A stretch of 64,000 bases of DNA, from assembly GCF_002310495.1 (NCBI RefSeq), contig NZ_CP023344.1, positions 2,418,001-2,482,000 of the forward strand, read 5' to 3'. Both the position numbers and the translations under genes were made by a program. This DNA is from Nibricoccus aquaticus (GTDB lineage: Bacteria; Verrucomicrobiota; Verrucomicrobiia; Opitutales; Opitutaceae). How positions within the stretch are numbered: the stretch's first letter is position 1; each line of letters starts with the position of its first letter. The notes below the pieces were generated by a model. It saw nothing but the letters and a program-made list of their open reading frames with translations, ran no database searches and was not told the DNA's origin. Positions 50,693 to 64,000 of this stretch are shown piece after piece.

Positions 50693-52897
50693 TCAGCGTG
50701 AGGATTGTTCTCGGAGGAAGGCTTGCAGTGCTTCGAGGTTGCGGCGGGCGCCGGGATGAGAGGGATCGAGTTTGATCGCGTGGCGGAGTGTGGTGGCGGC
50801 TTCAGTATAGCGGCCGGTTTGAGCGTAGAGGACGCCGAGGTGGGTGAGGAGGTCGGCGGTGGGCGGGCTGAGTTTGAGGAGGGCTTCGAACTGAGTGATG
50901 GCTTCGGGGGTGCGGCCGGTTTCGGCGTAGGCGGAGCCGAGGCTGAAGCGGGTTTGGGGGAGGTTGGGGTCGAGCTGAAGGGAGAGTTCCAGTTTCTGAA
51001 TACCTTCGGCGGTGCGGCCGGTGAGCATGAGGCAGGTGCCGAGGTTGGAGTTGAGGCGTGGAGATCGGGGGAAGGTAATGAGGGCTTTTTCGAGAATGGG
51101 GATTGCCTCGGCGGGGCGGTCGCTGCGGCGGAGCCAGGTGGCGTAGTTGCTGAGGAGGCCGCTGTCGTCGGGAGCGAGGGCGAGGGCTTGGGCGAAGTAG
51201 CGGCCGGATTCTTCCATGCGGTCGAGGCTCATCAAGGTGGTGGCGAGATTGAAGGCGTTGACGGCACTGCGGGGGTCCAGCTCGTAGGCGCGGCGGTAGG
51301 ACTGGAGTGCTTTTTCGAAATCGCCGAGATCGGTGGCGGCGTTGCCTAGGGCAGTGACGCAGAGGATGCTGTCGGGATTGAGGGAGACGGCGCGCTCGAG
51401 GGATGCGACGGCCTCGGGGAGACGGCGGAGTTGGACGAGGGCGCTGGCGAGGTTGCGGTGGGCGTCGGCATGGGTGGGCAGGTAGCGGATCGCTTCGCGG
51501 GAATAGTGCGTCGACTCTTCGAAGCGGTCGGCGCGGAAGAGTGCGGAGCCGAGGTTGGTGAGGGCACGGACGTTGTCGGGGAGGCGGGTTACGGTGTCTT
51601 CCCAGAGGGCGAGTTCGGAGCGGTAGTCGTGATTGCGGTGGTGGGTGCGGACGCCGGCGGCGAGGAGGAGAGCGGCGAGGAGCGGGAAGGTGGCGCGGGG
51701 GAGGAAGCGGTAAAGGAGGAGGGCGACGGGGACGGCGAGGGCGGCGAGCGGGAGGTACATGCGGTGCTCGGCGGCGGTCTGGGAGGAGATGGGGATGATG
51801 CTCGAAGTGGGGGCGAGGATGAGGAAGAGCCAGGCGAAGGCGAAGCCGGCGAGGGGCCAGCGGCGGAGGGAGAAGATCGCGAGGCCGAGGAGGGAGAGAA
51901 TGAAGAGGGCGGAGGGGATGACGACGTGGGTGGTTTTTTCGAGGATGGCGCCGTAGTCGAAAATCAGATTCGCGGGCCAGACAGCGCGCCAGAGATAGCC
52001 GGTGATGGCGGGGGCCTGGGTGAGGGCGTATTCCCACCAGGCGACCTGGGCGTAGCCGACGGTGGTGCCGCGTCCGCCGCTTTGGAGGATGCAGGCGAGG
52101 AGCAGGAGCCAGGTGGCCGCGAGGGAGAGGTGGAGTTTTTTATGGTTTCTCCAGGCTGCGGAGAAGGAGCCTGAGACGAACGTGCGGTCGTAGAGGAAGA
52201 CGATGAGTGGGGCGGAGGCCATGACTTCCTTCGAGGCCATGCCGCAGAGGCAGGAGATGATCGTGAGCGCGGGCCAGAGGCGGAGGCGTGTGAGCGAGGG
52301 CGCGGGAGGAGTTGGTGTGGAGGCGGGAGTTTTTTCGACGGTGCGGATGAAGCCGTAGAGTGTGAGGAAGTAGAAGAGGCCGACGAGAGATTCGGCGCGT
52401 TGAACGATGTAGGTGACGGATTCGGTCTGGAGCGGGTGGAGGGCCCAGAGGGCGGCGGCGCACCAGGCGAGCGGGGTGGCGTGGGTGGAAAAGCGGGGAG
52501 CGAGCGCGGGCTGGCGGAGCGTGCGGCGGATGACGGCCCAGAGGGTGAGGGTGGCGAGGGCGTGGATGAGGAGGTTGGCGAGGTGGTAGCCGGGGAGCGA
52601 GGTGCCGTGGAGGGCGTAGTTGATCGCCAGTGACAGGTTGAGCAGGGGACGTCCGCTGGTGGTGATGCCGCTGCCGGAAGGAGGGAGCCAGGCGGTGGCG
52701 AGGGATTTGATGGTGGGGTTGAGCTCGATGGAGTCGGCGTCGTCGAGGAGGAAGGGGACGTGAAAGGTGTTGGAGTACGCGGCGAGAAGCGCGGCGAAGA
52801 GGAGGATGGAGCCGAGGACAAAGGCGGCGGGGGATTCCCAGAACGAAGTGGGCGGCGGTGGCGTGGGGGCGCGGGGCTGGGGGGTGGAGGCGGGCAT
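50693..52897 (-). CDS. TMTC-like membrane protein with C-terminal TPR array
   Basis: 734 residues. The N-terminal half (about 20-430) has ten or more transmembrane helices. FHVPFLLDDADSIELNPTIK near the start carries the acidic pair typical of GT-C glycosyltransferases, and GRPLLNLSLAINYALHG plus LHPLQTESVTYIVQRAESLV match bacterial TMTC/DUF1736-like proteins. The C-terminal half (about 440-730) holds about eight TPR units. Eukaryotic TMTCs are O-mannosyltransferases; bacterial relatives are thought to glycosylate surface proteins or act in envelope assembly. The enzymatic role here is inferred. Confidence 0.78.
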   Translation of the reverse strand: MPASTPQPRAPTPPPPTSFWESPAAFVLGSILLFAALLAAYSNTFHVPFLLDDADSIELNPTIKSLATAWLPPSGSGITTSGRPLLNLSLAINYALHGTSLPGYHLANLLIHALATLTLWAVIRRTLRQPALAPRFSTHATPLAWCAAALWALHPLQTESVTYIVQRAESLVGLFYFLTLYGFIRTVEKTPASTPTPPAPSLTRLRLWPALTIISCLCGMASKEVMASAPLIVFLYDRTFVSGSFSAAWRNHKKLHLSLAATWLLLLACILQSGGRGTTVGYAQVAWWEYALTQAPAITGYLWRAVWPANLIFDYGAILEKTTHVVIPSALFILSLLGLAIFSLRRWPLAGFAFAWLFLILAPTSSIIPISSQTAAEHRMYLPLAALAVPVALLLYRFLPRATFPLLAALLLAAGVRTHHRNHDYRSELALWEDTVTRLPDNVRALTNLGSALFRADRFEESTHYSREAIRYLPTHADAHRNLASALVQLRRLPEAVASLERAVSLNPDSILCVTALGNAATDLGDFEKALQSYRRAYELDPRSAVNAFNLATTLMSLDRMEESGRYFAQALALAPDDSGLLSNYATWLRRSDRPAEAIPILEKALITFPRSPRLNSNLGTCLMLTGRTAEGIQKLELSLQLDPNLPQTRFSLGSAYAETGRTPEAITQFEALLKLSPPTADLLTHLGVLYAQTGRYTEAATTLRHAIKLDPSHPGARRNLEALQAFLREQSSR

Positions 52898-53041: not shown

Positions 53042-53821
53042 ATGCTGCAGAGGATTCTTATTGTGGAAGACGAGCCGACGATCGCGGACACGCTGGTGTA
53101 CGCGCTGAAGACGGAGGGCTTCGAGCCGGTGTGGCGGACGACGGGGGCGGAGGCGCTGATGGAGCTGGAGGGTGCGCAGCGGCCGGGCGGGGCGTTTGCG
53201 TTGGTGGTGCTCGATGTGGGATTGCCGGATGTGAACGGGTTCGAGCTGTGCAAAAAGATCCGGGCGCAGTCGGCAGTGCCGGTTTTGTTTCTCACGGCGC
53301 GGGCGGATGAGATCGACCGGATTGTGGGGTTGGAGATCGGTGGGGACGATTATGTGACGAAGCCGTTTTCGCCGAGGGAAGTGTGTGCGCGGGTGAAGGC
53401 GATTTTGAGGCGGGGCGGGGTCGTGGCTGCGAAGCCTGCGCTGGAGGAAGGGTTGGCTGCGTCGTCGGGGAAAAGAGAGCTAGCGGCTGCGGCAGGAGCG
53501 GTGAAGACGGACGAATTTTTCCATGATCCGGAGCGGTGCGAGGTGAAGTTTCGCGGGCAGCGGCTGGAGCTGACGCGTTACGAGTACCGGCTTTTGAAGA
53601 CGCTGCTGGGGCGGCGGGGGCGGGTGTATTCGCGGGATGAACTCATGACGCAGGCGTGGGAAGATCCGGGGGCGAGTCTGGATCGGACGGTGGACGCTCA
53701 TATCAAGACGCTGCGGGCGAAGCTGCGAGCGGCGGCAGTGGCGTCCGGTCTGTCGGCGGAGGCGCTGGAAAGCGATCCGATCCAGACGCATCGCGGGATG
53801 GGGTATTCGTTGCGCGGGTAA
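53042..53821 (+). CDS. creB: Two-component response regulator CreB
   Basis: 259 residues. The receiver domain (1-120) contains VEDEPTIADTLVYALKTEGF, phospho-acceptor D58 in VVLDVGLPDVNGFELC, and PVLFLTARADEIDRIVGLEI then PFSPREVCARVKAIL. These are strikingly close to E. coli CreB, which shares the VEDE-IADTLVY and KPFSPREVCAR blocks. The winged-helix output domain (about 155-258) has LTRYEYRLLKTLLGRRGRVY, DRTVDAHIKTLRAKLRA and the closing THRGMGYSLRG, again as in CreB. It should bind TTCAC-N6-TTCAC boxes; arrays of that kind precede the VIT gene and creD. creC starts 7 bp downstream. Confidence 0.92.
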   Translation: MLQRILIVEDEPTIADTLVYALKTEGFEPVWRTTGAEALMELEGAQRPGGAFALVVLDVGLPDVNGFELCKKIRAQSAVPVLFLTARADEIDRIVGLEIGGDDYVTKPFSPREVCARVKAILRRGGVVAAKPALEEGLAASSGKRELAAAAGAVKTDEFFHDPERCEVKFRGQRLELTRYEYRLLKTLLGRRGRVYSRDELMTQAWEDPGASLDRTVDAHIKTLRAKLRAAAVASGLSAEALESDPIQTHRGMGYSLRG

Positions 53822-53828
53822 ACGGGTC

Positions 53829-55277
53829 ATGACGCTGCGCACGAGAATCATGCTGGTGTACCTGCTCGTGGTGGGTGGCGGTGTTTATTATCTGGTGACG
53901 CGGGGGCTGGAGGAGTTGCGGCCACGTTATCTGGAGTCGATGGAAGTACCGCTGGTGGATGCGGCGCATTTGCTGGCGCACGCGGTCGGAGTGGAGGCGG
54001 TGGAGTCGGACGCGATCGATGCCGGGCGCGTGAAGGCGGTGCTGGAGGGAGCGTTTGCGCGGCGGTTCGCGGCGAAGGTTTATTCGATCACGAAGACGCG
54101 GGTGGATTTGCGGGTGTATGTGACGGATGCACGGGGACGGGTGGTGTACGACTCGGACGGCGGGCGGCAGGTGGGGGAGGATTTTTCGCAGAGGCGGGAT
54201 GTGGCGCGGACGTTGCGGGGCGAATACGGGGCGCGGGCGTCGTACGATGTGCCGGTGGATGAGAAGGCGCTGGTGCTGTATGTGGCGGCGCCGGTGCTGT
54301 CGGCGGACGGGGCGACGGTTGGTGTGCTCACGGTGGGAAAGCCGGCCGAGAGTGTGGACGATCTGGTGCGGGCGGCGCGGACGCGGCTGGCGGTGGCGGG
54401 TGCGGTGGGCGGCGGGTTGCTGGTGGCGCTGGGGGTGGCGTTTTCGATCTGGATCGCGACACCGCTGGCGCGGCTGACGCAGTATGCAAGGGCGTTGCGC
54501 GATGGGAAACCGGCGAAGCTGCCGAGGCTGGCGGGGCGCGAGGTGGGGGAGTTGCAGGTGGCGTTTGACGAGATGCGGGCGGCGCTGGACGGGAAGGCGT
54601 ATGTGGAGCGGTACGTGCAGACGTTGACGCATGAGATCAAATCGCCGCTGTCGGCGATCCGCGGTGCGGCGGAGATCTTGGCGGAGAATCCGCCGGAGGA
54701 GGCGCGGGAGAAATTTGTGGGGAATATCCGCGCGGAGACGGGGCGAATTCAGCGGATTGTGGATCAGCTGTTGCAGCTGGCATCGCTCGAGGCGCGGAAG
54801 GCGCGGGCGGAGTTTGCGGAGGTAGAATTGGTATCGCTCGTGCGCGAAGTGGTGGATGCGGCGCAGGCGGGGGCGCAGACGCGCGGGGTAAGTTTGGAGT
54901 TTGAGGCGGGAGCAGGGCGTTTGCCGGTGAGGGGGGATCGCGGGCTTCTGGCGCAAGCGGTGTCCGCGCTGATTCAGAACGCGCTGGAGTTCACGGCGAC
55001 CGGCGGGCGAGTCCGTGCGTTGGTGAAGGGTGAGTCAGACGGGAACGCGGCTGTGTGTATCGAGGATTCGGGCACGGGGATTCCGGACTTCGCGCTAGGG
55101 CGGGTGTTCGAGCGGTTTTATTCGCTGCCGAGGCCGGGGAGCGGGGTGAAGAGCACCGGGCTGGGATTAAGTCTGGTGCGGGAGATCGCGCATTTGCACG
55201 AGGGCGAGGCGGCGGTGGGGAATAGGGCGGAGGGCGGGGCTTGGGCGGAGTTGAGGTTGCCGCGGCGGGGTAGTTAG
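53829..55277 (+). CDS. creC: Sensor histidine kinase CreC
   Basis: 482 residues. TM1 (about 7-26) and TM2 (about 186-208) flank a CreC-type periplasmic sensor with RVDLRVYVTDARGRVVYDSD, DVARTLRGEYGARASYD and APVLSADGATVGVLTVGKP, all recognisable from E. coli CreC. HAMP follows, then HisKA with H268 in TLTHEIKSPLSAIRGAAEIL, and an HATPase domain with ALIQNALEFTATGG, EDSGTGIPDFALGRVFERFY and GLGLSLVREIA. It phosphorylates CreB. It is the second gene of a creBC operon. The next gene on the same strand with cre-like boxes is the VIT gene 3.8 kb on. Confidence 0.92.
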   Translation: MTLRTRIMLVYLLVVGGGVYYLVTRGLEELRPRYLESMEVPLVDAAHLLAHAVGVEAVESDAIDAGRVKAVLEGAFARRFAAKVYSITKTRVDLRVYVTDARGRVVYDSDGGRQVGEDFSQRRDVARTLRGEYGARASYDVPVDEKALVLYVAAPVLSADGATVGVLTVGKPAESVDDLVRAARTRLAVAGAVGGGLLVALGVAFSIWIATPLARLTQYARALRDGKPAKLPRLAGREVGELQVAFDEMRAALDGKAYVERYVQTLTHEIKSPLSAIRGAAEILAENPPEEAREKFVGNIRAETGRIQRIVDQLLQLASLEARKARAEFAEVELVSLVREVVDAAQAGAQTRGVSLEFEAGAGRLPVRGDRGLLAQAVSALIQNALEFTATGGRVRALVKGESDGNAAVCIEDSGTGIPDFALGRVFERFYSLPRPGSGVKSTGLGLSLVREIAHLHEGEAAVGNRAEGGAWAELRLPRRGS

Positions 55278-55407
55278 GTGCGGCTGGTGGGAAGCGGTGA
55301 GGTGAGTCGCAAAGACGCGATCGCGCGAGGGTCGGGCGTTCGTTTACGCGGGCGCGAGTGAACTGGAGTCGCGCATTGGGCTGCTTGGTCCGTCGGGGCA
55401 GACGGGA

Positions 55408-58400
55408 TCAGCGGACCTGCAGGCGGAAGAAAGCGGCGGGGTCGGCGACGGTGAATTCCAGCTCCAACTCGCCGGAGGCATTGATGGAGGTCGTGCCAAC
55501 AGTGAAGGGCAGGGGGGTGAAATGGGTGAGGTCGGTGGATTTTTCCACGGCCATGGTCAGTTTCCATTTTCCGGTCACGGAATCGCGTGTGATCACTGGC
55601 GCTCCGGCGGTGAGCGTCTGGAGGTCGGTCGAGCGGTAGAGCGCGTAGGCGATCGGGTTCGTGGTGACATCGGTCTGGCCGGCGGTGCGCGAGGCGGCGA
55701 TCTGGGCGGAGGTGAAAAGGCTGTAGGTTGCGGGAGCGCCGGTGACGTCGGAGCGGCCGACGAGGCGACCGGCGTCGTATTGGGCGGTGACTTGGGCGGA
55801 GGTGAAGAGGTCGTAGGTGGCGGGTGAGCCCGTGACGTCGGAGCGACCTAGGAGGCGGCTGGCATCCACCTGGGTCTGAACCTGCGTGGCGGTGAAGAGA
55901 TCGTAGGTGTTGGGAGCGCCGGTGACGTCGGAGCGGCCGACGAGGCGGCCGGCGTCGTATTGGGCGGTGACTTGGGCGGAGGTGAAGAGGTTGTACGTCG
56001 CGGGGGAGGACGTGACGTCGGTGCGGCCGGTGGTGCGATTGGTGTCGTACTCGGTGAGGGTGAAGAGGCTGGCGTTGTTCAGAAACGCGGTGACGAGGGC
56101 GGGTTGGGCGACCTGCCAATCGAAGCCGAGGGCGGCGAGGTTGAGCTCGGCGAGGTCGTTGAGGCCGTCGCCGTCGGTATCGGTGGTGGCGGAGAGCGGG
56201 GTGACGGTGACGGAGACGCCGGTCAAGGTGGTGGAGGTGACGGAATTCCCTGCGGTGTCCTGATAGCTCAAGGTAACCGTATATGTCCCGGTGGGGATGG
56301 AGGAGGCGTGAAGGGCGCGGTCGTAGGTGAAGGTGCCGGACTTGGCGTTCGCGAGGGGAATCACGGTGGTGGTCGTGCCGTTGCTGAAGGTCAGTTTCAC
56401 GGTGCCGCCGTAAGGGGTCTCTGGAAGCGTGTAGGCGATGGCGCTCCCATCGACGATGGCTGCGTTGTTGACCAGGTTTGTGATGCTCGGGGCCAGGGTG
56501 CCGGCATCGTATGCCATGTAAGGCAGCGTCACGCCGGTGGCCGTGTGGTTGTTGGCATCCCGAAAGGCGAAGGAGACGGTGTAGGTGTCGTCGGGCAGGG
56601 AGGGGGAGGTGGTGGAAATGATTCCTACGCTCGGGATTTTCGAGCGGTCGAAGACGAGGCTATTGTTCCGTATGAGGTTTGGCATGGTCACCACCACGGT
56701 CGTGCGGCCGGTAAACGTGATCTTGGCGGTGGTTGCGGCGTAGTTTTCGGGTATCGAGTAGTAGAAAGTGGCGAGGTTCGTGCCCAAGGTGAGGACATCT
56801 CCTTTGAGGGCTTCGGTGGAGGTGACCGTGGCGGAGGTGGGACCCGGCGTAATGTCCGCATAGGTGGAGCCGCCCGAGGTGGTCGCGAGCTTGAAGCTGT
56901 TGGTGGTGACCGTGCCGACGTAGTACGTCGTGGACGGCAGGAGATTGGTCCCGGAAATGGTCACCGCTGTGTTGGCGGCCAGGCCGTGGTTCGCAAAGGT
57001 GATGACGTCGGTGGCCGGGGCGATCGTGACATCCGTAGCGGCGGAGAGGGAACGTATCGTGCCTGACGCGATGTCCGCGAAGGTGGAGCCGCCGGAGGTG
57101 GTCGCGAGCTTGAAGCTGTTGGCGTTAACCACTGAGACGTAGTAAGCCGTGGTGGATAGGAGGTTGGTCCCGGTAATGTTCACCAACGTGTTGGCCGCCA
57201 ATCCATGACTCGTGAAGGTGATGACATCGGTCGCGGGGTCGATGGCGACCGGGCCGGAGAGGGAGCTGATCGAGCCTGTGACCCCGGGCGTGAAATCCGC
57301 GAAGGTCGAGCCGCCGGATGTGGTCGCGAGCTTGAAGCTGTCGGTGTCGATCACCGAGACATAGTAGGGTGTGTTCGACGTTAGATTGGTGCCGGAAATG
57401 GAGACCTCCGCGTTGGCCGCGTAGCCGTGACCCGCAAGGGTGATGACATCGGTCGTGGCGTCTATTGCGATCGTGGTGGGTGCGGAGAGGGCGCGTATCG
57501 TTCCTGTGGTGCCTGTCGGGAAATCCGCGTAGGTGGACCCTCCTGGAGTGGTCGCGAGTTTGAGGGAACTCGCGTCGATCGGGGAGGCGTAGTAGGTCGT
57601 GTCCGGCAACAGATTGGTCCCGGAGATTTTCACGGCTGCGCCGGCGGTCAGCAAGTGACAGGGCACATTGATGGTCCCGATGGTCCCGGGGGTGATGTCC
57701 GCGTAGGTAGAGCCGCCGGAAGTGGTCGCGAGCTTGAAGCTGTCGGTGTCGATCGACGAGACGTAGTAGGTCGTGGTCGATGGCAGATTGGTCCCGGAAA
57801 GGGTCACCTCGGTATTGGCTGCCAGGCCATGATTCGTGAGGGTGATGACATCGGTCGCGGGGTTGATTGCGACGGGGGCTGAATCGGGGGAGTAAGTGAT
57901 CGTGCCGCTGGTGCCCGGGGTGATGTCCGCGTAGGTGGAGCCGCCGGAGGAGGTCGCGAGCTTGAAGCTGTCGGTGTCGATCGACGAGACGTAGTAGGTC
58001 GTGGCCGATGGGAGATTGGTCCCGGAAAGGGTCACGGCCGCATCTGGCGCCAGGCCATGGTTTTTGAGGGTGAGGACGTCGGTTGCCGGATTGATTATGA
58101 CCGGGGAAGTGCCGGCGGGGAGTGAGACCACGTCGGTCGCCGGATCGACGGTGAACGAAACGGGGGTGTAGGAGAAGGTGGGCGGCAGCGCGCCGGTATC
58201 GACCGTGACGTTCGACGCTGTGTTGGACCGCACGATCACGCCGGTGGTTGTGCGGGTGTATTGGGCATAAACGCTGTAAACCCCGTCGGGTGGGTTCGGG
58301 GTAACCGCGACACCGGAGGCGTTAATCTGAGTCACGGCTTTGCCTTCGGTGTTTAGCTGCGTGACGGCTCTGAACAAGGCGTTGCTAGTCGCCGTCGAGG

Positions 58401-58833
58401 GATTGAAGCTGAACGATTGCGACGCTGAGACGCTGAACATCGTCATCGTCCAGGTGGAGCCGATCGACGCGGTCGAATACCCGGAGACGTAGGTCATCAC
58501 CAGCCGGACGGAGTTGATGCCACCGGCTTCGCCGGAGATCGAAAAAACGACGGCCATGTTGTCGATGGCACTCCCTCCGGTGCTGGGCGCGCTCAGTGTC
58601 ATCGTCTGGCTGAAACCGGTTTGGCCGATGGCGAATAACCAACACCAGGCCAGCAGGTGGAGCCAGCCGGCGGTGGCCCGGCGGGGCGGTGCGAGGTGTG
58701 AGGGCGGACGGGGCTGCTGGCGGAAACTGAAGGTTTTCGGCTCGGCGTGCTCGGGGAGTGCCAGGAGGGGCACGTTAGAGGAGGGATGGGCGAGGCGCGG
58801 GTACGGGTGAAGCCGACGGAAGAATCGAGGCAT
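55408..58833 (-). CDS. Large secreted repeat protein (Ig-like repeats plus 30-residue repeats)
   Basis: 1141 residues. A late signal peptide (about 55-77, ending GFSQ) follows a basic N-terminus. Residues about 225-670 carry six repeats of 58-76 residues built on INPATDVITLTNHGLAANT, VTLSGTNLPSTTTYYVSSID and DSFKLATTSGGSTYADI. Residues about 925-1045 carry five repeats of 26-30 residues such as AQYDAGRLVGRSDVTGAP followed by YDLFTSAQV. The end, FTVADPAAFFRLQV, is a frequent C-terminus of verrucomicrobial surface proteins. It is probably an adhesin or fibre protein at the cell surface. No enzymatic domain is visible. It is antisense between creC and the VIT gene. Confidence 0.8.
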   Translation of the reverse strand: MPRFFRRLHPYPRLAHPSSNVPLLALPEHAEPKTFSFRQQPRPPSHLAPPRRATAGWLHLLAWCWLFAIGQTGFSQTMTLSAPSTGGSAIDNMAVVFSISGEAGGINSVRLVMTYVSGYSTASIGSTWTMTMFSVSASQSFSFNPSTATSNALFRAVTQLNTEGKAVTQINASGVAVTPNPPDGVYSVYAQYTRTTTGVIVRSNTASNVTVDTGALPPTFSYTPVSFTVDPATDVVSLPAGTSPVIINPATDVLTLKNHGLAPDAAVTLSGTNLPSATTYYVSSIDTDSFKLATSSGGSTYADITPGTSGTITYSPDSAPVAINPATDVITLTNHGLAANTEVTLSGTNLPSTTTYYVSSIDTDSFKLATTSGGSTYADITPGTIGTINVPCHLLTAGAAVKISGTNLLPDTTYYASPIDASSLKLATTPGGSTYADFPTGTTGTIRALSAPTTIAIDATTDVITLAGHGYAANAEVSISGTNLTSNTPYYVSVIDTDSFKLATTSGGSTFADFTPGVTGSISSLSGPVAIDPATDVITFTSHGLAANTLVNITGTNLLSTTAYYVSVVNANSFKLATTSGGSTFADIASGTIRSLSAATDVTIAPATDVITFANHGLAANTAVTISGTNLLPSTTYYVGTVTTNSFKLATTSGGSTYADITPGPTSATVTSTEALKGDVLTLGTNLATFYYSIPENYAATTAKITFTGRTTVVVTMPNLIRNNSLVFDRSKIPSVGIISTTSPSLPDDTYTVSFAFRDANNHTATGVTLPYMAYDAGTLAPSITNLVNNAAIVDGSAIAYTLPETPYGGTVKLTFSNGTTTTVIPLANAKSGTFTYDRALHASSIPTGTYTVTLSYQDTAGNSVTSTTLTGVSVTVTPLSATTDTDGDGLNDLAELNLAALGFDWQVAQPALVTAFLNNASLFTLTEYDTNRTTGRTDVTSSPATYNLFTSAQVTAQYDAGRLVGRSDVTGAPNTYDLFTATQVQTQVDASRLLGRSDVTGSPATYDLFTSAQVTAQYDAGRLVGRSDVTGAPATYSLFTSAQIAASRTAGQTDVTTNPIAYALYRSTDLQTLTAGAPVITRDSVTGKWKLTMAVEKSTDLTHFTPLPFTVGTTSINASGELELEFTVADPAAFFRLQVR
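55664..56050 (-). repeat. 90-bp tandem repeats in the C-terminal part of the repeat protein
   Basis: Anchor GTGACGTCGG (or close variants) occurs at about 55664, 55742, 55832, 55922 and 56012, an exact 90-bp period for the last four. The units at 55742 and 55922 are almost identical over about 70 bp (one visible difference), suggesting recent duplication or gene conversion. Confidence 0.8.
56830..58115 (-). repeat. Six DNA repeats of about 170-230 bp encoding the Ig-like units
   Basis: Anchor GTCGCGAGCTTGAAGCTG (or a close variant) occurs at about 56882, 57101, 57323, 57551, 57724 and 57953, spaced 219, 222, 228, 173 and 229 bp. One unit (the third from the N-terminus) has lost about 50 bp. 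The units remain highly similar at DNA level. Confidence 0.8.
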
Positions 58834-59089
58834 GTGGTGGTTGGAGCGGCCCCAGCTATCGTTACGGATGCCGGCAACTGTAGGGGTGAATTGGATATTG
58901 GTCGTTTCGTGTTAAGGGGGGTGCGGAAAGCGGTTTCCAGAGGGGTGTGTGCGGAGATTAAACAAGGTTCCCGGGTGGGAGCGCAGGGCCTGCGCGCGGA
59001 GCAAAGGCGAGGCGGCCGGGAGAGAACGGGCGTGGTGGCTGGGCCATGCTTTGCGGGCGGCCGGGGCAGGGTGAACGGACTCTTGGGAT

Positions 59090-59127
59090 TTCATCGCGAG
59101 TTCATGGAGGGTTCACATGGGCTTCAT
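59090..59127 (+). promoter_or_regulatory. Four tandem CreB-type boxes upstream of the VIT gene
   Basis: TTCAT, TTCAT, TTCAC and TTCAT start at 59090, 59101, 59112 and 59123, an exact 11-bp period with 6-bp spacers CGCGAG, GGAGGG and ATGGGC. Each adjacent pair fits the enteric CreB recognition tag TTCAC-N6-TTCAC. The last box starts 27 bp before the proposed ATG. The same layout precedes creD. Confidence 0.8.
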
Positions 59128-59149
59128 GAAGTGCGGGCAGAGTGGCGGC

Positions 59150-61309
59150 ATGGATGCTTTCTTTCGTGGGGAATTGGATTTTCGAAACGGCTGGCGTGCG
59201 CGGGAGCGGATGCGGCTGGTCGTGGCGTGGGTGATCGGGCTGGCGCTGATGGCGCTGGCGTTGAGTGGGGCGGAGCCGGAGCGTGCCGGGTCGCCTTACT
59301 TTGCGGTGAAGGGCGCGGAGAGGGGTGTGGATGCGTTGCCGCTTAAGAGCACGGATGTGCAGGCGGTGCTGGTCGGGCCGATCGCGGAGGTGCGGGTGAC
59401 GCAGGTTTATGCGAACGAGGGCGGCGTGCCGCTGGAGGCGCGGTATGTTTTCCCCGGGTCAACGCGGGCGGCGGTTCATGCGATGACGATGACCGTGGGT
59501 GGCCGGAGGATCGACGCGGTCATCAAAGAAAAGGGCGAGGCGCGGAAGACGTATGAGAAGGCGAAGAGCGAGGGGCGGACGGCGGCGTTGCTCGAGGCAG
59601 CGCGGAGCAATGTGTTTGAGATGAATGTCGGGAATATTCTGCCCGGCGATGTGGTGACGGTGGAGCTGCGCTATTCGGAGATGATTTCACCGGAGGAAGG
59701 GCGGTATGAATGGGTGTTTCCGACGGTGGTGGGGCCGCGGTATGCGGGGACGGCGAAGAGTGAAGAGGGAAGGGTGAAGCGTGAAAACGGAAGCGGGGGA
59801 ACAGAGGCCGGAAGCCAGGTGCCAGAGGGCGGAGGGCAGGCGTCGGAGGACGGACGACTCGCGGGCGCTCGTCGCTACGTGGGGGCGGGGGAGGAGCCGG
59901 TGTTTACGTTGGAGGTGGAAATCGTGACGGGGGTGCCGGTGCGGGAGGTGACTTGTGGGACACACAAGGTCGAGACGCGGACGGAAGGCGGGCGGACGCG
60001 GGTGGTGTTGCCGGTGACCGAGGACGCGCAGATGAACCGGGATTGTATTTTGCGGTATCGGCTGGCTGGCGACGCGATCGCGGGCGGGTTGATGGTGGAT
60101 GAGTGGAAGGGGGAGAAGTATTTCATGCTGACTCTCCAGCCTCCGGCGCGGGTGACGCCGGCGTTCGTGCCGCCACGGGATTTTGTTTTCGTGGTGGATG
60201 TGTCGGGGTCGATGCACGGGTTTCCACTGGAGACCGCAAAGAAGCTGATGAGCGAGTTGCTGATGTCGTTGCGGGAGGCGGACTCGTTTAACGTGCTGCT
60301 ATTTTCTGGTGGGAGTCGCGTGCTGTCGGGCGAGCCGGTGGCGGCGACGCCGGAGAATATTGCGGCGGCGCTGGCGATGTTGGGGCGTCAGCAGGGAGGT
60401 GGGAGCACGGAGTTGCTGCCGGCGTTGAAGGAGGCGCTGGAGCTGCCGAAGCGCGCCGGGGTGTCGCGTAGTGTGGTCGTGGTGACGGATGGTTATGTGA
60501 TGGTGGAGGCGGAGGCGTATGCGCTCGTGCGTGAGAAGCTGAGCGAGGCGAATCTGTTTTCGTTTGGGATCGGGAGTTCGGTGAATCGTGAGCTCATCGA
60601 ACGGCTGGCGCGGGCTGGGCGGGCGGAAGCGGCGGTGATCGAAGGTGAGGCGCGGGTGGTGGAAGAGGCGGCGAAGTTTCGGGCGATGATCGAGTCGCCG
60701 GTGCTGACGCAGGTGCGGACAGAGTTTGTGGATTTCGCGACGCGGGAGGTTTTCCCGCAGGTGCAGCCGGATGTGCTGGCGGCGCGACCGCTGGTGGTGA
60801 TCGGGAAATTTTCCGGAGAGGCGGCGAGTGATGGAGCTGGTGGGAAGATTGTGGTGAAGGGATTTTCCGGAGGCGGAGTTTGGGAAGGAAAAGTCGATGT
60901 GGGTGGCGCGGTGGATTTGCGCGGGAGCGGGGTGCTGGCGCAGTTGTGGGCGCGGGAGCGGCTGGAGCAGTTGCGTGATTTGCATGCGGTGGGCGATGAG
61001 CCGGTGAAGCGGAAGGAGGAGATCGTGGCCTTGGGGCTGAAGTACAATTTGCTGACGCCGTACACGTCGTTCGTGGCGGTCGACACGGTGGTGCGGAAGG
61101 CGGCGGGTGATGATGCGCAGAAGGTGGATCAGACGGTGGCGTTGCCGGAGGGGATGAGCGCGGGCGAGGGTGTGCCGACGACGCCGGAGCCGGGTACGGT
61201 GACGTTGATGGTCATGGCGGCGCTGGTGGTGGCTTGGGGTGTGTGGAGGGAACGCAAGCGGGTGCGTGGGCGTTCGCGGGATAATGCAGGGCACGGAGGA
61301 TCGATGTGA
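59150..61309 (+). CDS. VIT and VWA domain protein with PEP-CTERM-like tail
   Basis: 719 residues from ATG 59150; an earlier in-frame ATG at 59117 lies inside the CreB boxes and was rejected. A signal anchor (about 18-38) leads to a VIT domain (about 45-190, PLKSTDVQAVLVGPIAEVRV, ARKTYEKAKSEGRTAALLEA, NVFEMNVGNILPGDVVTVEL). Then come a repeat-derived linker (about 200-240) and a VWA domain (about 340-510) with an intact MIDAS DVSGSM (D350, S352, S354). The C-terminus PTTPEPGTVTLMVMAALVVA followed by WRERKR is a PEP-CTERM-like sorting tail. The exosortase gene overlaps its stop (GTGA). It probably ends up processed at the cell surface as an adhesive or envelope-guarding protein. Confidence 0.88.
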   Translation: MDAFFRGELDFRNGWRARERMRLVVAWVIGLALMALALSGAEPERAGSPYFAVKGAERGVDALPLKSTDVQAVLVGPIAEVRVTQVYANEGGVPLEARYVFPGSTRAAVHAMTMTVGGRRIDAVIKEKGEARKTYEKAKSEGRTAALLEAARSNVFEMNVGNILPGDVVTVELRYSEMISPEEGRYEWVFPTVVGPRYAGTAKSEEGRVKRENGSGGTEAGSQVPEGGGQASEDGRLAGARRYVGAGEEPVFTLEVEIVTGVPVREVTCGTHKVETRTEGGRTRVVLPVTEDAQMNRDCILRYRLAGDAIAGGLMVDEWKGEKYFMLTLQPPARVTPAFVPPRDFVFVVDVSGSMHGFPLETAKKLMSELLMSLREADSFNVLLFSGGSRVLSGEPVAATPENIAAALAMLGRQQGGGSTELLPALKEALELPKRAGVSRSVVVVTDGYVMVEAEAYALVREKLSEANLFSFGIGSSVNRELIERLARAGRAEAAVIEGEARVVEEAAKFRAMIESPVLTQVRTEFVDFATREVFPQVQPDVLAARPLVVIGKFSGEAASDGAGGKIVVKGFSGGGVWEGKVDVGGAVDLRGSGVLAQLWARERLEQLRDLHAVGDEPVKRKEEIVALGLKYNLLTPYTSFVAVDTVVRKAAGDDAQKVDQTVALPEGMSAGEGVPTTPEPGTVTLMVMAALVVAWGVWRERKRVRGRSRDNAGHGGSM
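59756..59876 (+). repeat. Repeat-derived insert inside the VIT gene
   Basis: GAGTGAAGAGGGAAGGGTGA (from about 59758) resembles the insert in the exosortase gene at 62127. It is followed by GGCCGGAAGCCAGGTGCCAG-type sequence similar to the spacer at about 34941, and by a small hairpin (GACGA...TCGTC, about 59853-59873). It encodes a Gly/Glu/Ser/Arg linker after the VIT domain without breaking the frame. Confidence 0.55.
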
Positions 61310-62739
61310 TTCACGCAAAGACGCGAAGCCGCGAAGAAGGCATCGGCGTGGCGGCCGGGGTGGCGGAGAAGTCCGTCGGGGCGATGCGTCTTTGGCTGGG
61401 CGCGTGGGTGGTGGGGGTGAATTGGGAGGTGGTGCGCTGGTATGTCGCGAGGTTGGGCGATGGCGGGGATGAACCGTTGGGAATCGTGGCGCTGGTGGCG
61501 GCGGTGTTGATGACGCCGCGGGCGGTGTGGCGTGCCCGGATGTCGAATACGGCGCTGGTGTTGAGTGCAGGGCTGGCGTTGGTGGCGGTTGTCGGGTCGG
61601 GGTTTGTGCCGATGCTGGTGCGTGGGGGATTGGTGGCGGGGGCGCTGGGCGTGGTGATTGCGGGCGGTGGGGGGGCGTGGGGGCGAGCGGGTTTGCTGGG
61701 GTTGTCGCTGCCGCTGATGGCGACGGCGCAGTTTTATGCCGGATATCCTCTGCGCGTGCTGACAGCGGAGCTGGGCAGGCCGCTGTTGTGGCTGGCGGGC
61801 GTGGCGACGGAGCGCAGCGGCGTTTTGTTGAGCTGGGCGGGAGGAGAAGTCGTCGTGGACGCGCCGTGCAGCGGGGTGCGGATGCTGTGGGTGGGGGTGG
61901 TGCTCGCGTGCGGGCTGGCGGCGTGGCGGCGGGCGGGTGTTGGGAAGACGGCCGCGTTGCTGGTGCTGGGCGTGGGCGGAGTGGTGGCGGGAAATGCGGT
62001 GAGGGCGGCGGTGCTGTTTCTCACCGAGAGCGGTGTGTGGCCGAATGCGGCGTGGGTACACGAGACGGTGGGCGCGGTGATTTTCGGCGCGGTGGAGATG
62101 GGGCTTTGGGTGTGGGCGGGGCGGGGGAAGGGTGAAGAGAGAAGGGTGAAGGGTGAAAGGGCGGAGGTGGGAGGATGGAGGTTGGGCCGTGGTTTTATGT
62201 GGATCGGATGGGTGTCGGTCGGAGTCGCGGTGCTGGTGTTTGGTGGCGCGGTTGGGAATCGGGCGCGTGGAAACGGCGCGAGTGCGGTCGCGGAAAACGC
62301 GGTGGAGGCGGAGGCGGGATGGCCGGAGTTTTTTGAGGGGGCGCCGTTGATGCCGGTCGGAAAGAGCGAGCGGCTGGGGGATATGGTGGGCGGGCTGGCG
62401 GGAGAAACGCGGGTGTTCACGCAGAGCGGGCGCGTCGTGTTATTGCGGAGACTGCGGGCGGCGTCGCGGACGGTGCATCCAGTGGCGGATTGTTTTCGGG
62501 CGTGGGGTTTTCGCGTGGCGGGGCAGCGGTTGGTGAAGGACGAAGGTGGAGTTTTATGGAGTGAATTTGAGGCGGAGCGCGGGGCGGAGTTTTGGCGGGT
62601 GCGGGAGCGGTGGCGGGATGAGCGGGGGAAGGTTTGGACAGATGTGTCGGCCTGGTGGTGGGCGGCGCAGGGGGCGGAGGCGCGCGGGCCGTGGTGGGCG
62701 GAGGCGGTGATGGTGCGGGGTGACGAGGTGCGATCTTAA
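61306..62739 (+). CDS. Exosortase with extra C-terminal domain
   Basis: 477 residues from a GTG that overlaps the VIT stop; ATG 61384 (MRLWLGAW) is an alternative, because the first 12 codons derive from an interspersed repeat. Eight hydrophobic segments contain the exosortase triad: C188 in DAPCSGVRMLW, R233 in GNAVRAAVLF and H252 in AWVHETVGAVIF (numbered from the GTG). A repeat-derived cytoplasmic linker (about 273-295), one more helix (about 300-318) and a C-terminal domain of about 150 residues (HPVADCFRAWGFRVAG) follow; the latter is reminiscent of EpsI-type domains fused to some exosortases. It is probably the transpeptidase for the VIT protein encoded upstream. Confidence 0.85.
   Translation: MIHAKTRSREEGIGVAAGVAEKSVGAMRLWLGAWVVGVNWEVVRWYVARLGDGGDEPLGIVALVAAVLMTPRAVWRARMSNTALVLSAGLALVAVVGSGFVPMLVRGGLVAGALGVVIAGGGGAWGRAGLLGLSLPLMATAQFYAGYPLRVLTAELGRPLLWLAGVATERSGVLLSWAGGEVVVDAPCSGVRMLWVGVVLACGLAAWRRAGVGKTAALLVLGVGGVVAGNAVRAAVLFLTESGVWPNAAWVHETVGAVIFGAVEMGLWVWAGRGKGEERRVKGERAEVGGWRLGRGFMWIGWVSVGVAVLVFGGAVGNRARGNGASAVAENAVEAEAGWPEFFEGAPLMPVGKSERLGDMVGGLAGETRVFTQSGRVVLLRRLRAASRTVHPVADCFRAWGFRVAGQRLVKDEGGVLWSEFEAERGAEFWRVRERWRDERGKVWTDVSAWWWAAQGAEARGPWWAEAVMVRGDEVRS
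61311..61341. repeat. CGCAAAGACGCGAAGCCGCG interspersed repeat at the exosortase start
   Basis: TTCACGCAAAGACGCGAAGC followed by CGCGAAGAAGG resembles sequences at 49194 (CACGCGAAGCCGCCAAGGCG) and 55306 (GTCGCAAAGACGCGA). It lies just after the VIT stop codon and covers the proposed GTG start region of the exosortase gene. Confidence 0.5.
62127..62178 (+). repeat. Repeat-derived insert inside the exosortase gene
   Basis: AGGGTGAAGAGAGAAGGGTG followed by AAGGGTGAAAGGG matches the VIT-gene insert at 59758 in most positions. It lies in frame and encodes a basic linker (GEERRVKGERAE) between the catalytic membrane core and the last helix. Confidence 0.55.
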
Positions 62740-62756
62740 CGATCACGAGATTCTAT

Positions 62757-63077
62757 ATGCATCTCTTAGCTGAAGTCATGGACAAGGAGCCGGCTTTGCC
62801 GGAGCTATTTTTGCTTCCGGTCGTCGTGGGCTTATTTTCCTTCCTCCTAATCCGATGGTCCCGCTGGTTCTTTTTGCCCGGATTTCTACTCTCATTTTTT
62901 CTCTGGTGGGCTGTCACATCGGAGGTTCGGGATCCTTATGTCGGGCCTGCGATTATCCGTGAGGCTAGATTTTTTTATGTTTGGTGCGCTTACGTCGCAG
63001 CATCCATTCCGGCAGTGCTTGCTCTGCTTGGGCTGATTTTTCCTCGAAAACGCCTTCGAAATTACGAGCGCAATTAA
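62757..63077 (+). CDS. Small membrane protein between exosortase and creD
   Basis: 106 residues with three hydrophobic segments (about 16-33, 36-53 and 75-97) separated by short charged loops, and a basic C-terminus (FPRKRLRNYERN). An internal ATG at 62778 (MDKEPALPEL) is an alternative start. Base composition is clearly more AT-rich than the flanking exosortase and creD genes. No family was recognised. It lies 17 bp after the exosortase stop and before the second CreB-box array, so it is probably cotranscribed with VIT and exosortase. It may be a later insertion or a topogenic partner of CreD. Confidence 0.6.
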   Translation: MHLLAEVMDKEPALPELFLLPVVVGLFSFLLIRWSRWFFLPGFLLSFFLWWAVTSEVRDPYVGPAIIREARFFYVWCAYVAASIPAVLALLGLIFPRKRLRNYERN

Positions 63078-63102
63078 AAGAGGCTTTGGGACAGCAGCTG
63101 AT

Positions 63103-63140
63103 TTCACCGCGAGTTCATGGTGAGTTCATCCGGGCTTCAT
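63103..63140 (+). promoter_or_regulatory. Four tandem CreB-type boxes upstream of creD
   Basis: TTCAC, TTCAT, TTCAT and TTCAT start at 63103, 63114, 63125 and 63136, an exact 11-bp period with spacers CGCGAG, GGTGAG and CCGGGC. The first spacer is identical to that of the VIT array. The last box starts 27 bp before the proposed creD ATG, exactly as upstream of the VIT gene. Confidence 0.82.
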
Positions 63141-63162
63141 GTTGCGCAGTGAAGATGGGTGG

Positions 63163-64000
63163 ATGGATACAGCCTCTTCTTTGGTTTCGGCGAGTCGTGG
63201 GTGGTTTCAGCGGCGCGCTTTGTTTTTCAAGGTCATCGGCGTGGGGATTTTTGGGCTGCTGCTACTGATCCCGCTCGGAATGGTGCGGTCGGTTTTGTGG
63301 GAGCGGCAGATGCGCTCTGCGGAGGCGGTGAATTCGATCACGGAAACATGGGGGCGGTCGCAGCGGATTCTGGGGCCGGTGCTGGTGGTACCTTACACGT
63401 GGAAGGCGGAGTTTGAGGAGACGACCGTGGTCGAGGGGCGTCGGGTGAAGGAGATGAAGACGGCGGAGTTTTCGTCGGAGGCGTTTTTCCTGCCGGAGAA
63501 GCTGCAGGTCGCGGGCGACCTGGAGATGTCGGAGCGGCGGCGGGGGATTTATGCGGTGCCGGTTTATGCTGGGAAGCTGCGGCTGGCGGGGACTTTTATT
63601 CGGCCGGAGTTTGGGTTTACCGGTGTGAAGAATCCGCAGCCGCAGTGGGAGCGGGCGCGGGTGAGTTTTGTGTTGAGCGATCTGCGAGGTGCGCGTGAGG
63701 CGTTGGTCGTGAACTGGGCGGGGAAACCGGCGGCGTTGCAGCCGGGGGCGCAGCTGGCGGGCTTCAAGAAGGGGGTGAGTGCGGGCGTGGTGGTCGATGC
63801 GCTGGCGGCTGAGCAGACGTTTTCATTGGAGCTCACGATGAATGGGAGCGAGGCGTTGACGGTGGTGCCGTTGGGGCGGGAGACGACGGTGGCGCTGACG
63901 TCGAACTGGCCGGATCCGAGTTTCATGGGGGCGTTTTTGCCGGTGAAGCGGGAGATCGGGACGGAGGGTTTTTCGGCGGAGTGGGCGGTGTCGTATTATG
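63163..64000 (+). CDS. creD: Inner membrane protein CreD (cut by window end)
   Basis: About 279 N-terminal residues are visible; CreD proteins are about 450. A cytoplasmic start (MDTASSLVSASRGWFQRRAL) is followed by a transmembrane helix (about 23-43) and the CreD periplasmic domain: RQMRSAEAVNSITETWGRSQ, ILGPVLVVPYTWKAEFEE, AEFSSEAFFLPEKLQVAGDL and ERRRGIYAVPVYAGKLRLAG. The further helices lie beyond the window. ATG 63163 was chosen over ATG 63139, which lies inside the last CreB box. Its spacing and GGATGGAT context match the VIT gene start. CreD is the classical CreBC-induced envelope protein of unknown mechanism. Confidence 0.9.
   Translation, partial: MDTASSLVSASRGWFQRRALFFKVIGVGIFGLLLLIPLGMVRSVLWERQMRSAEAVNSITETWGRSQRILGPVLVVPYTWKAEFEETTVVEGRRVKEMKTAEFSSEAFFLPEKLQVAGDLEMSERRRGIYAVPVYAGKLRLAGTFIRPEFGFTGVKNPQPQWERARVSFVLSDLRGAREALVVNWAGKPAALQPGAQLAGFKKGVSAGVVVDALAAEQTFSLELTMNGSEALTVVPLGRETTVALTSNWPDPSFMGAFLPVKREIGTEGFSAEWAVSYY

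Follow-up and report, generated by a model that had tools for sequence, protein, structure and literature searches.

The window analysed here is a stretch of 64,000 nucleotides from Nibricoccus aquaticus (contig NZ_CP023344.1, positions 2,418,001 to 2,482,000), the last part of which encodes homologues of the two-component system CreBC, a protein with VIT and VWA domains, an exosortase and CreD. In our assessment this locus is very probably a CreBC regulon module that drives two outputs, the VIT-VWA protein together with its exosortase and, separately, creD, presumably for envelope stress. The case is read from sequence and consists of the genes themselves, the arrays of direct repeats that precede them, the geometry of the candidate promoters, the conserved pairing of the VIT-VWA and exosortase genes and the co-occurrence with CreC.

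Regulators, target genes and repeat arrays in the window

The regulator genes are identified by curated NCBIfam models. creB (53042..53821, + strand) encodes an OmpR-family response regulator that scores 302.7 bits against NF008296 (cut-off 273); at E<=0.1 its only domains were Response_reg and Trans_reg_C, and a sigma-54 domain was not found. The adjacent creC (53829..55277, +) encodes a sensor histidine kinase with HAMP, HisKA and HATPase_c domains, scoring 539.8 bits against NF008312 (cut-off 356).

The VIT-VWA protein (59150..61309, +; 719 aa from the start codon preferred below) matches PF08487 at 120.9 bits and VWA_3 (PF13768) at 68.9 bits, and its MIDAS motif reads DVSGS, with DxSxS kept in 21/21 aligned rows. 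The protein ends in PEPGTVTL, followed by a hydrophobic stretch and a basic end that were judged by eye; this tail is a weak match to the Pfam PEP-CTERM model, scoring 15.5 bits in one scan and 21.6 in another (cut-off 20.7), and a PEP lies close to the C-terminus in all 21 aligned VIT rows (20 distinct) and in 18/18 of the held-out loci described below. Overlapping the end of the VIT-VWA gene by 4 bases is the start of the exosortase gene (61306..62739, +), the product of which carries a C-terminal extension and scores 83.9 bits against PF09721 (cut-off 25.7). Its triad of C188, R233 and H252 (numbered from the GTG start; 195, 240 and 259 in the numbering of the open reading frame, ORF) is invariant across 25/25 aligned rows, 24 of them distinct. 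Among the EpsH-type models, the cut-off is passed for TIGR04178 (39.3 bits, cut-off 23) and not reached for TIGR02602 (40.9 bits, cut-off 105.55), and the score against the XrtQ model NF012182 (141.4 bits) is below its cut-off of 270. Further downstream, creD (63163..64000, +, continuing past the window end; preferred start MDTASSLV) matches PF06123 at 232.4 bits for the part within the window and at 432.1 bits for the whole gene in the genome.

A perfect array of four head-to-tail TTCAY-N6 units lies upstream of each of the two target units. The array at 59090..59127 (+, 0 mismatches) is the proposed CreB operator of the VIT-exosortase operon, and that at 63103..63140 (+, 0 mismatches) is the proposed CreB operator of creD. 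No other four-unit array in the 4.73 Mb genome is free of mismatches, and the number of four-unit arrays expected in the window is zero (100 shuffles, up to 3 mismatches). Five more four-unit places occur in the genome with 1, 1, 2, 2 and 3 mismatches, the weakest of which are near noise because the reversed control also gives one place with at most 3 mismatches. Only arrays with at least three units are conspicuous in the window: for the two-unit pattern TTCAC-N6-TTCAC with 2 mismatches there was no significant excess in the window, with 49 found against 44.7 expected. That two-unit pattern is the published cre/blr tag (PMC4689548), with which the arrays agree in TTCA core and spacing. In the creD array all four units keep the core and the spacing, three units end in T, and no adjacent pair of units is strict TTCAC in both members. 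The host genome holds three further exact three-unit sites, after which the next predicted genes encode membrane proteins of 65 and 187 aa and a secreted-looking protein of 219 aa.

Each of these components had been named in an original prediction made from the DNA letters alone, which described CreB and CreC homologues, a VIT-VWA protein with a PEP-CTERM-like tail, an exosortase overlapping it by four bases, CreD, and CreB-type box arrays in front of the VIT gene and creD; all are borne out by the scores, motifs and shuffling results just given.

Array conservation, promoter geometry and co-occurrence with CreC

We searched a sample of 188 genomes of the class for CreC, CreD and the window exosortase. 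CreC exceeded its cut-off in 25 genomes and CreD its Pfam cut-off in 36, while the exosortase had a match at E<=0.001 in 37, of which the 12 at E<=3e-29 were kept as the strong set (the other 25 were dropped; their best E-value was 2.8e-10). All 12 strong-exosortase genomes fall within the 25 CreC genomes (Fisher p 1.8e-12, with relatedness not corrected). The arrays track CreC as well, exact three-unit arrays being present in 21/25 CreC genomes (69 matches, against 2 with the reversed pattern) and in 3/28 CreC-negative genomes (6 matches, against 0 reversed); the 28 controls were hand-picked, before the arrays were known, from the 163 genomes in which CreC does not pass its cut-off, and preference went to close relatives and larger genomes.

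The 69 matches merge into 54 sites, and probable chance sites (for example G110 C13 and C9, and a site in G185 that lies in a gene) were retained in all counts. Genes around the sites were predicted with a simple custom caller, its codon model trained on 78 pieces from many genomes; a version with a codon model from ten own-genome genes was replaced, having missed genes such as L010:3773. Only 1/54 sites is located inside a predicted gene, and in 44/54 a same-strand predicted start lies at -15 to +80 bp. The largest groups of downstream genes are VIT-VWA with 10 sites and CreD with 9 (one CreD 1.2 kb away; window array included). A family of 187-aa membrane proteins is next downstream in 4 of the 54 sites, following arrays in G064, G169 and G183 as well as in the host genome. 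Five kinds of gene follow two sites each: CreB, a Sulfatase-domain protein (PF00884 in the one member tested), a small protein with two helices, a long repeat protein bearing CxxCH close to its N-terminus, and a probably unrelated gene at a distance of 650-703 bp. VanZ-type and YceI-type proteins are among the single cases. The array-downstream Sulfatase-domain protein is taken as LTA-synthase-like, and targets of this kind would suggest envelope-polymer functions in the Cre regulon. Arrays stand 40 and 21 bp before related sulfatase/LTA-synthase-like membrane proteins in L141 (G042) and L168 (G169). A further single case is the array at 2501 of L158 (G137:C11), located 35 bp before a short protein of 185 aa, which by eye looks exosortase-like in its CSG, NACR and H motifs and for which Pfam gives only a sub-cut-off PepSY_TM match.

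The sequence immediately after the arrays is also constrained. Counting from the array end, an A occupies +12 in 39/54 sites and a T occupies +16 in 38/54, with both present in 34/54; these two positions mark a hexamer behind a 10-bp spacer, which reads as a -10 element. In the window the proposed -10 elements, each after a 10-bp spacer from the last box, are CAGAGT (59138..59143, +) for the VIT array and GAAGAT (63151..63156, +) for the creD array, both with the A at +12 and the T at +16. PhoB-dependent pho-box promoters likewise have 11-bp repeats immediately upstream of the -10. A start triplet (ATG, GTG or TTG) lies exactly 22 bp past the array in 17/54 sites, and 11/54 of the starts chosen by the gene caller are at this distance. 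If initiation occurs about 7 bp after the -10, the transcripts with such starts would be leaderless. The first ATGs of the VIT gene and creD fall inside the arrays and were the ones chosen by the gene caller (gaps of -11 and -2); by analogy with the other array sites we prefer 59150 and 63163, each 22 bp past its own array.

We then used a held-out test, for which the motif and the +12/+16 rule were fixed first. Among 150 family genomes, the exosortase matched at E<=1e-15 in 22, 4 of them already seen and 18 new. VIT adjoins the exosortase in 18/18 of the new loci, and 16/18 have at the head of the unit an array scoring at least 14/15, with A at +12 in 16/16 of these arrays and T at +16 in 12/16. 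In 305,568 bases of held-out loci the motif gave 29 matches at 14 or better, all before VIT or creD, and the controls (reversed motif and periods 9, 10 and 12) gave 0; at 13 or better there were 35 matches for the motif versus 1 for the reversed motif and 5, 1 and 12 for the three periods. The threshold of at least 14 was introduced with this set, the previous sets having used exact matches or at least 13, and in the held-out scan arrays were extended by one unit when 4 of 5 letters matched, which altered the array end in L224 only.

Pooling of the class, family and named sets gave 38 distinct VIT-exosortase loci, window included, after L064 had been dropped as a repeat of L051 (G152); further repeats between the named and the other sets are possible. 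An array heads the unit in 36/38. Both creB and creC lie in the locus in 13/38 (the window, G147, G092, L068, L070, L218, L219, L224, L225, L226, L227, L229 and L233), some loci being cut by contig ends. In G042 the system is split between two contigs, one of which carries creB next to array-creD and the other creC next to array-VIT-exosortase, and the latter locus has no CreB match at E<=10. Over the 390 bp upstream of VIT in 21 rows, L053 reaches only 11/15 at best; its array instead precedes creB and heads creB-creC-VIT-exosortase. L050 and L071 have arrays of 15/15 and 14/15 upstream of VIT, and creB itself is preceded by an array in G147 and G152.

A VIT gene is present in 9/21 of the named loci (L060, L063, L064, L065, L067, L068, L070, L071 and L074), eight from Verrucomicrobiota and one from an Acidobacteria metagenome-assembled genome with an array of only 13/15; L064, from a Verrucomicrobium strain, has the same array letters as G152. 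Named loci L061, L062, L066, L069, L072, L073 and L075-L080 have a related exosortase with no VIT match of at least 30 bits and no exact array, and a scan of L061, L062, L066, L069, L077 and L078 for arrays at 13 or better found none, the L062 sequence covering only what follows from inside or just before the exosortase. In the Sphingomonas loci L077 and L078, genes resembling creB and creC, with weaker scores, come after the related exosortase, and neither a VIT hit nor an array is present; this is perhaps another exosortase with its own two-component pair.

The original prediction had staked itself on conserved synteny and boxes in relatives, and both are present, with the array heading the unit in 36/38 loci and creBC within 13. 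Its single unit of CreBC, VIT, exosortase and CreD survives in part: the array with the VIT-exosortase pair is conserved, but creD lies within such a locus only in the window and in G214 (L226), where array-creD-VIT-exosortase-creB-creC run in one direction and the promoter has no T at +16. The conserved feature is thus the array plus the VIT-exosortase pair. The predicted order creB, creC, VIT also needs amending, as the genes are there but creC and VIT do not follow directly upon each other: a 1141-aa secreted-looking repeat protein is encoded between them on the opposite strand (55408..58833, -).

This 1141-aa gene contains tandem repeats of 219 bp and 90 bp, and its product has no relative among the other VIT-exosortase loci scanned. 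Between the exosortase gene and the creD array, an ORF at 62757..63077 (+) encodes a small membrane protein of 106 aa that had no family match in the NCBIfam and Pfam searches and no relative among those loci. Upstream of creB, 50693-52897 (-) encodes a membrane-plus-TPR protein resembling the PEP-CTERM-system TPR protein PrsT (102.3 bits, cut-off 312.2).

Weighing the alternatives

Several observations weigh against a CreBC regulon module. Four of the 25 CreC genomes lack an exact three-unit array (G033, G051, G174 and G122), although G122 has a 14/15 array before VIT and the other three are without a strong exosortase match. Of the two held-out misses, L222 (G196) has creC-VIT-exosortase with no array of at least 14, and in L232 (G226) the contig ends inside VIT. 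Array scans of the window found none upstream of creB. CreD was over the Pfam cut-off in only 6/12 strong-exosortase genomes, 3 of these as partial matches, and in Stenotrophomonas creD is reported to be constitutively expressed (PMC4689548), so that CreBC control of creD is not universal. Some relatives have VIT tails of the PEPS or PEPA form, and exclusive pairing of VIT with the adjacent exosortase is not proven because the host genome encodes another five exosortases along with 17 further PEP-CTERM tails that pass the Pfam cut-off.

These last points belong to the view that the exosortase is a general PEP-CTERM enzyme with the VIT protein as one substrate among many, which we regard as unlikely. 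Exosortases usually serve many substrates, the 17 other tails would supply them, and the PEPS and PEPA tails of some relatives look like ordinary ones. Against this, four of the five other exosortases score higher than the VIT-linked enzyme for EpsH, VIT stands beside this exosortase in all 18 held-out genomes, and the VIT tail PEPGTVTL differs from the other tails of the host, 14/17 of which read PEP[SA]TY and 0/17 of which have G after PEP. The residue that follows PEP is no constant signature, however, since relatives' VIT tails vary between PEPG, PEPE, PEPS and PEPA. On balance the VIT protein and the adjacent exosortase are likely to be a dedicated pair, albeit a putative one.

It is quite improbable that the arrays serve another regulator of the OmpR/PhoB family, with CreBC a mere neighbour. 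These genomes do contain many histidine-kinase genes (94 first-look candidates in G000), and many arrays lie far from creBC. Such a regulator would nevertheless have to account for the tracking of CreC by the arrays (21/25 versus 3/28 genomes), for the fit of the repeat to the published cre/blr tag in spacing and TTCA core (PMC4689548), and for the position of arrays before the classical target creD and, in G147 and G152, before creB.

We see only a slim chance that CreB acts at the arrays as a repressor, blocking polymerase from a bound position near the start codon. The start triplet does lie 20-25 bp past the array in 35/54 sites; yet the -10-like element stands at a fixed distance downstream, as it would for an activator that replaces the -35 element in the manner of PhoB. 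In E. coli, P. aeruginosa and Aeromonas, moreover, activated CreBC/BlrAB is reported to raise creD (PMC4689548).

Finally, there is very little chance that the locus is a diverged proteobacterial dedicated sortase system, with VIT-VWA target, sortase and own two-component pair: TIGR03788 is the best NCBIfam family of the VIT protein and CreB and CreC have matches to TIGR03787 and TIGR03785, but all three remain under cut-off (410.4/551.65, 117.3/335.7 and 108.5/612.2 bits, respectively), the two regulator scores are far below those of the Cre models, the enzyme is an exosortase, the tail has PEP, and a tree with midpoint rooting places the two LPQT-tailed, sortase-linked relatives apart from the 20 exosortase-linked VIT proteins.

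Those two relatives are homologous VIT-VWA proteins encoded on Phyllobacterium and Novosphingobium plasmids, annotated beside class GN sortases and ending in LPQT-type tails. In the tree of 23 VIT-VWA proteins they and the protein of G101 are separate from the exosortase-linked group, with midpoint rooting and a long G101 branch. This separation and the differing tails suggest that one VIT-VWA core was combined with different anchoring machineries. The G101 protein (304 bits) was rejected as an exosortase target, as it has no PEP tail and a lipoprotein-like N-terminus, and inspection by eye of the ORFs beside its gene found no exosortase. This VIT-VWA relative (L194:6671-8821) perhaps represents a third anchoring mode. 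A plasmid of Pontibacter sp. G13 (L196:6421-11115) also encodes a VIT-VWA region that shares 46% identity with the window protein, within a 1564-aa protein annotated as a SusC/RagA TonB-linked outer membrane protein.

Proposed mechanism and relation to known systems

From the DNA we infer CreB binding, activation over repression, sorting by this exosortase, the stimulus and the function, which together compose the following model. CreC, an inner-membrane sensor kinase, would phosphorylate CreB under the CreBC stimulus; in P. aeruginosa, CreBC is activated by inactivation of PBP4 (PMC2654508). CreB would then bind the three to five 11-bp repeats of the form TTCAY-N6, arranged head to tail with the last one ending 10 bp before the -10, and array-bound CreB would recruit RNA polymerase, replacing the -35 element. 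Two transcripts would be switched on, one for the VIT-VWA protein plus exosortase and one for creD. The VIT-VWA protein would be exported and would stay in the inner membrane, anchored by the hydrophobic tail at its C-terminus, until the co-encoded exosortase cut it at or near the PEP motif, and the cut protein would be passed to the cell surface or envelope. There it may, together with CreD, help the envelope to withstand stress; loss of CreD is reported to weaken the envelope in Stenotrophomonas (PMC4689548).

A broader proposal is possible, though we would not yet call it probable. The VIT-VWA-exosortase pair, rather than CreD, might be the core CreBC output in the class, forming a dedicated surface-display response through leaderless array promoters that would also reach a sulfatase/LTA-synthase-like protein, small membrane proteins, proteins of the VanZ and YceI types and a second exosortase-like protein in one genome; a common VIT-VWA core might be plugged into an exosortase, a class GN sortase or lipoprotein anchoring depending on the lineage.

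The CreBC regulon module proposed here shares features with four known systems. Like CreBC-CreD (BlrAB) of E. coli, Aeromonas, Pseudomonas and Stenotrophomonas, it has CreB and CreC scoring over cut-offs and, before its proposed target creD, a repeat with the TTCA core and the spacing of the tag. Unlike that system, its TTCAY units come three to five in tandem, with a constant spacing to a -10-like element, its proposed targets include a surface protein and the exosortase of that protein, and half of the strong-exosortase genomes in the class sample gave no CreD over cut-off. Similar to the proteobacterial dedicated sortase system, a homologous VIT-VWA target is encoded beside its own sorting enzyme; here, however, an exosortase goes with a PEP tail, whereas there a class GN sortase is combined with an LPQT-type tail, and the regulators fit the CreBC models, with the sortase-system regulator models sub-cut-off.

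In Bacteroidota, a VIT protein is paired with its own exosortase, exosortase N (XrtN), and the present pair has the same composition. This analogy, drawn in the original prediction, proves weak: the exosortase scores 28.7 bits against the XrtN model TIGR04476 (cut-off 200), the nearest family of the VIT protein is the sortase-linked TIGR03788, and no XrtN-type VIT family is among the three families that match it at E<=0.01.

The PEP-CTERM/EpsH system with PrsK/PrsR likewise has a PEP tail, a Cys/Arg/His exosortase and a kinase and regulator that comparative genomics ties to a promoter motif. PrsR is a sigma-54-interacting regulator (PMC1569441), in contrast to CreB, which lacks a sigma-54 domain, and the site proposed here is a direct-repeat array with one putative substrate co-encoded. 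The 2006 paper that defined PEP-CTERM/EpsH expected further regulators and DNA motifs still to be discovered, and its Table 1 gives Verrucomicrobium spinosum 65 PEP-CTERM proteins and no PrsK or PrsR (PMC1569441).

Taken together, the parts of this system are known, and what appears to be new is a CreBC regulon that has an exosortase-sorted surface protein, the sorting being putative, as its principal target. Among the matches listed from the open-licence PubMed Central literature there was no description of CreBC combined with an exosortase or a VIT protein. For one exosortase and its probable substrate, the locus supplies candidates for the regulator, the operator and the layout of the promoter, and a sorted surface protein would be a kind of target new to CreBC.

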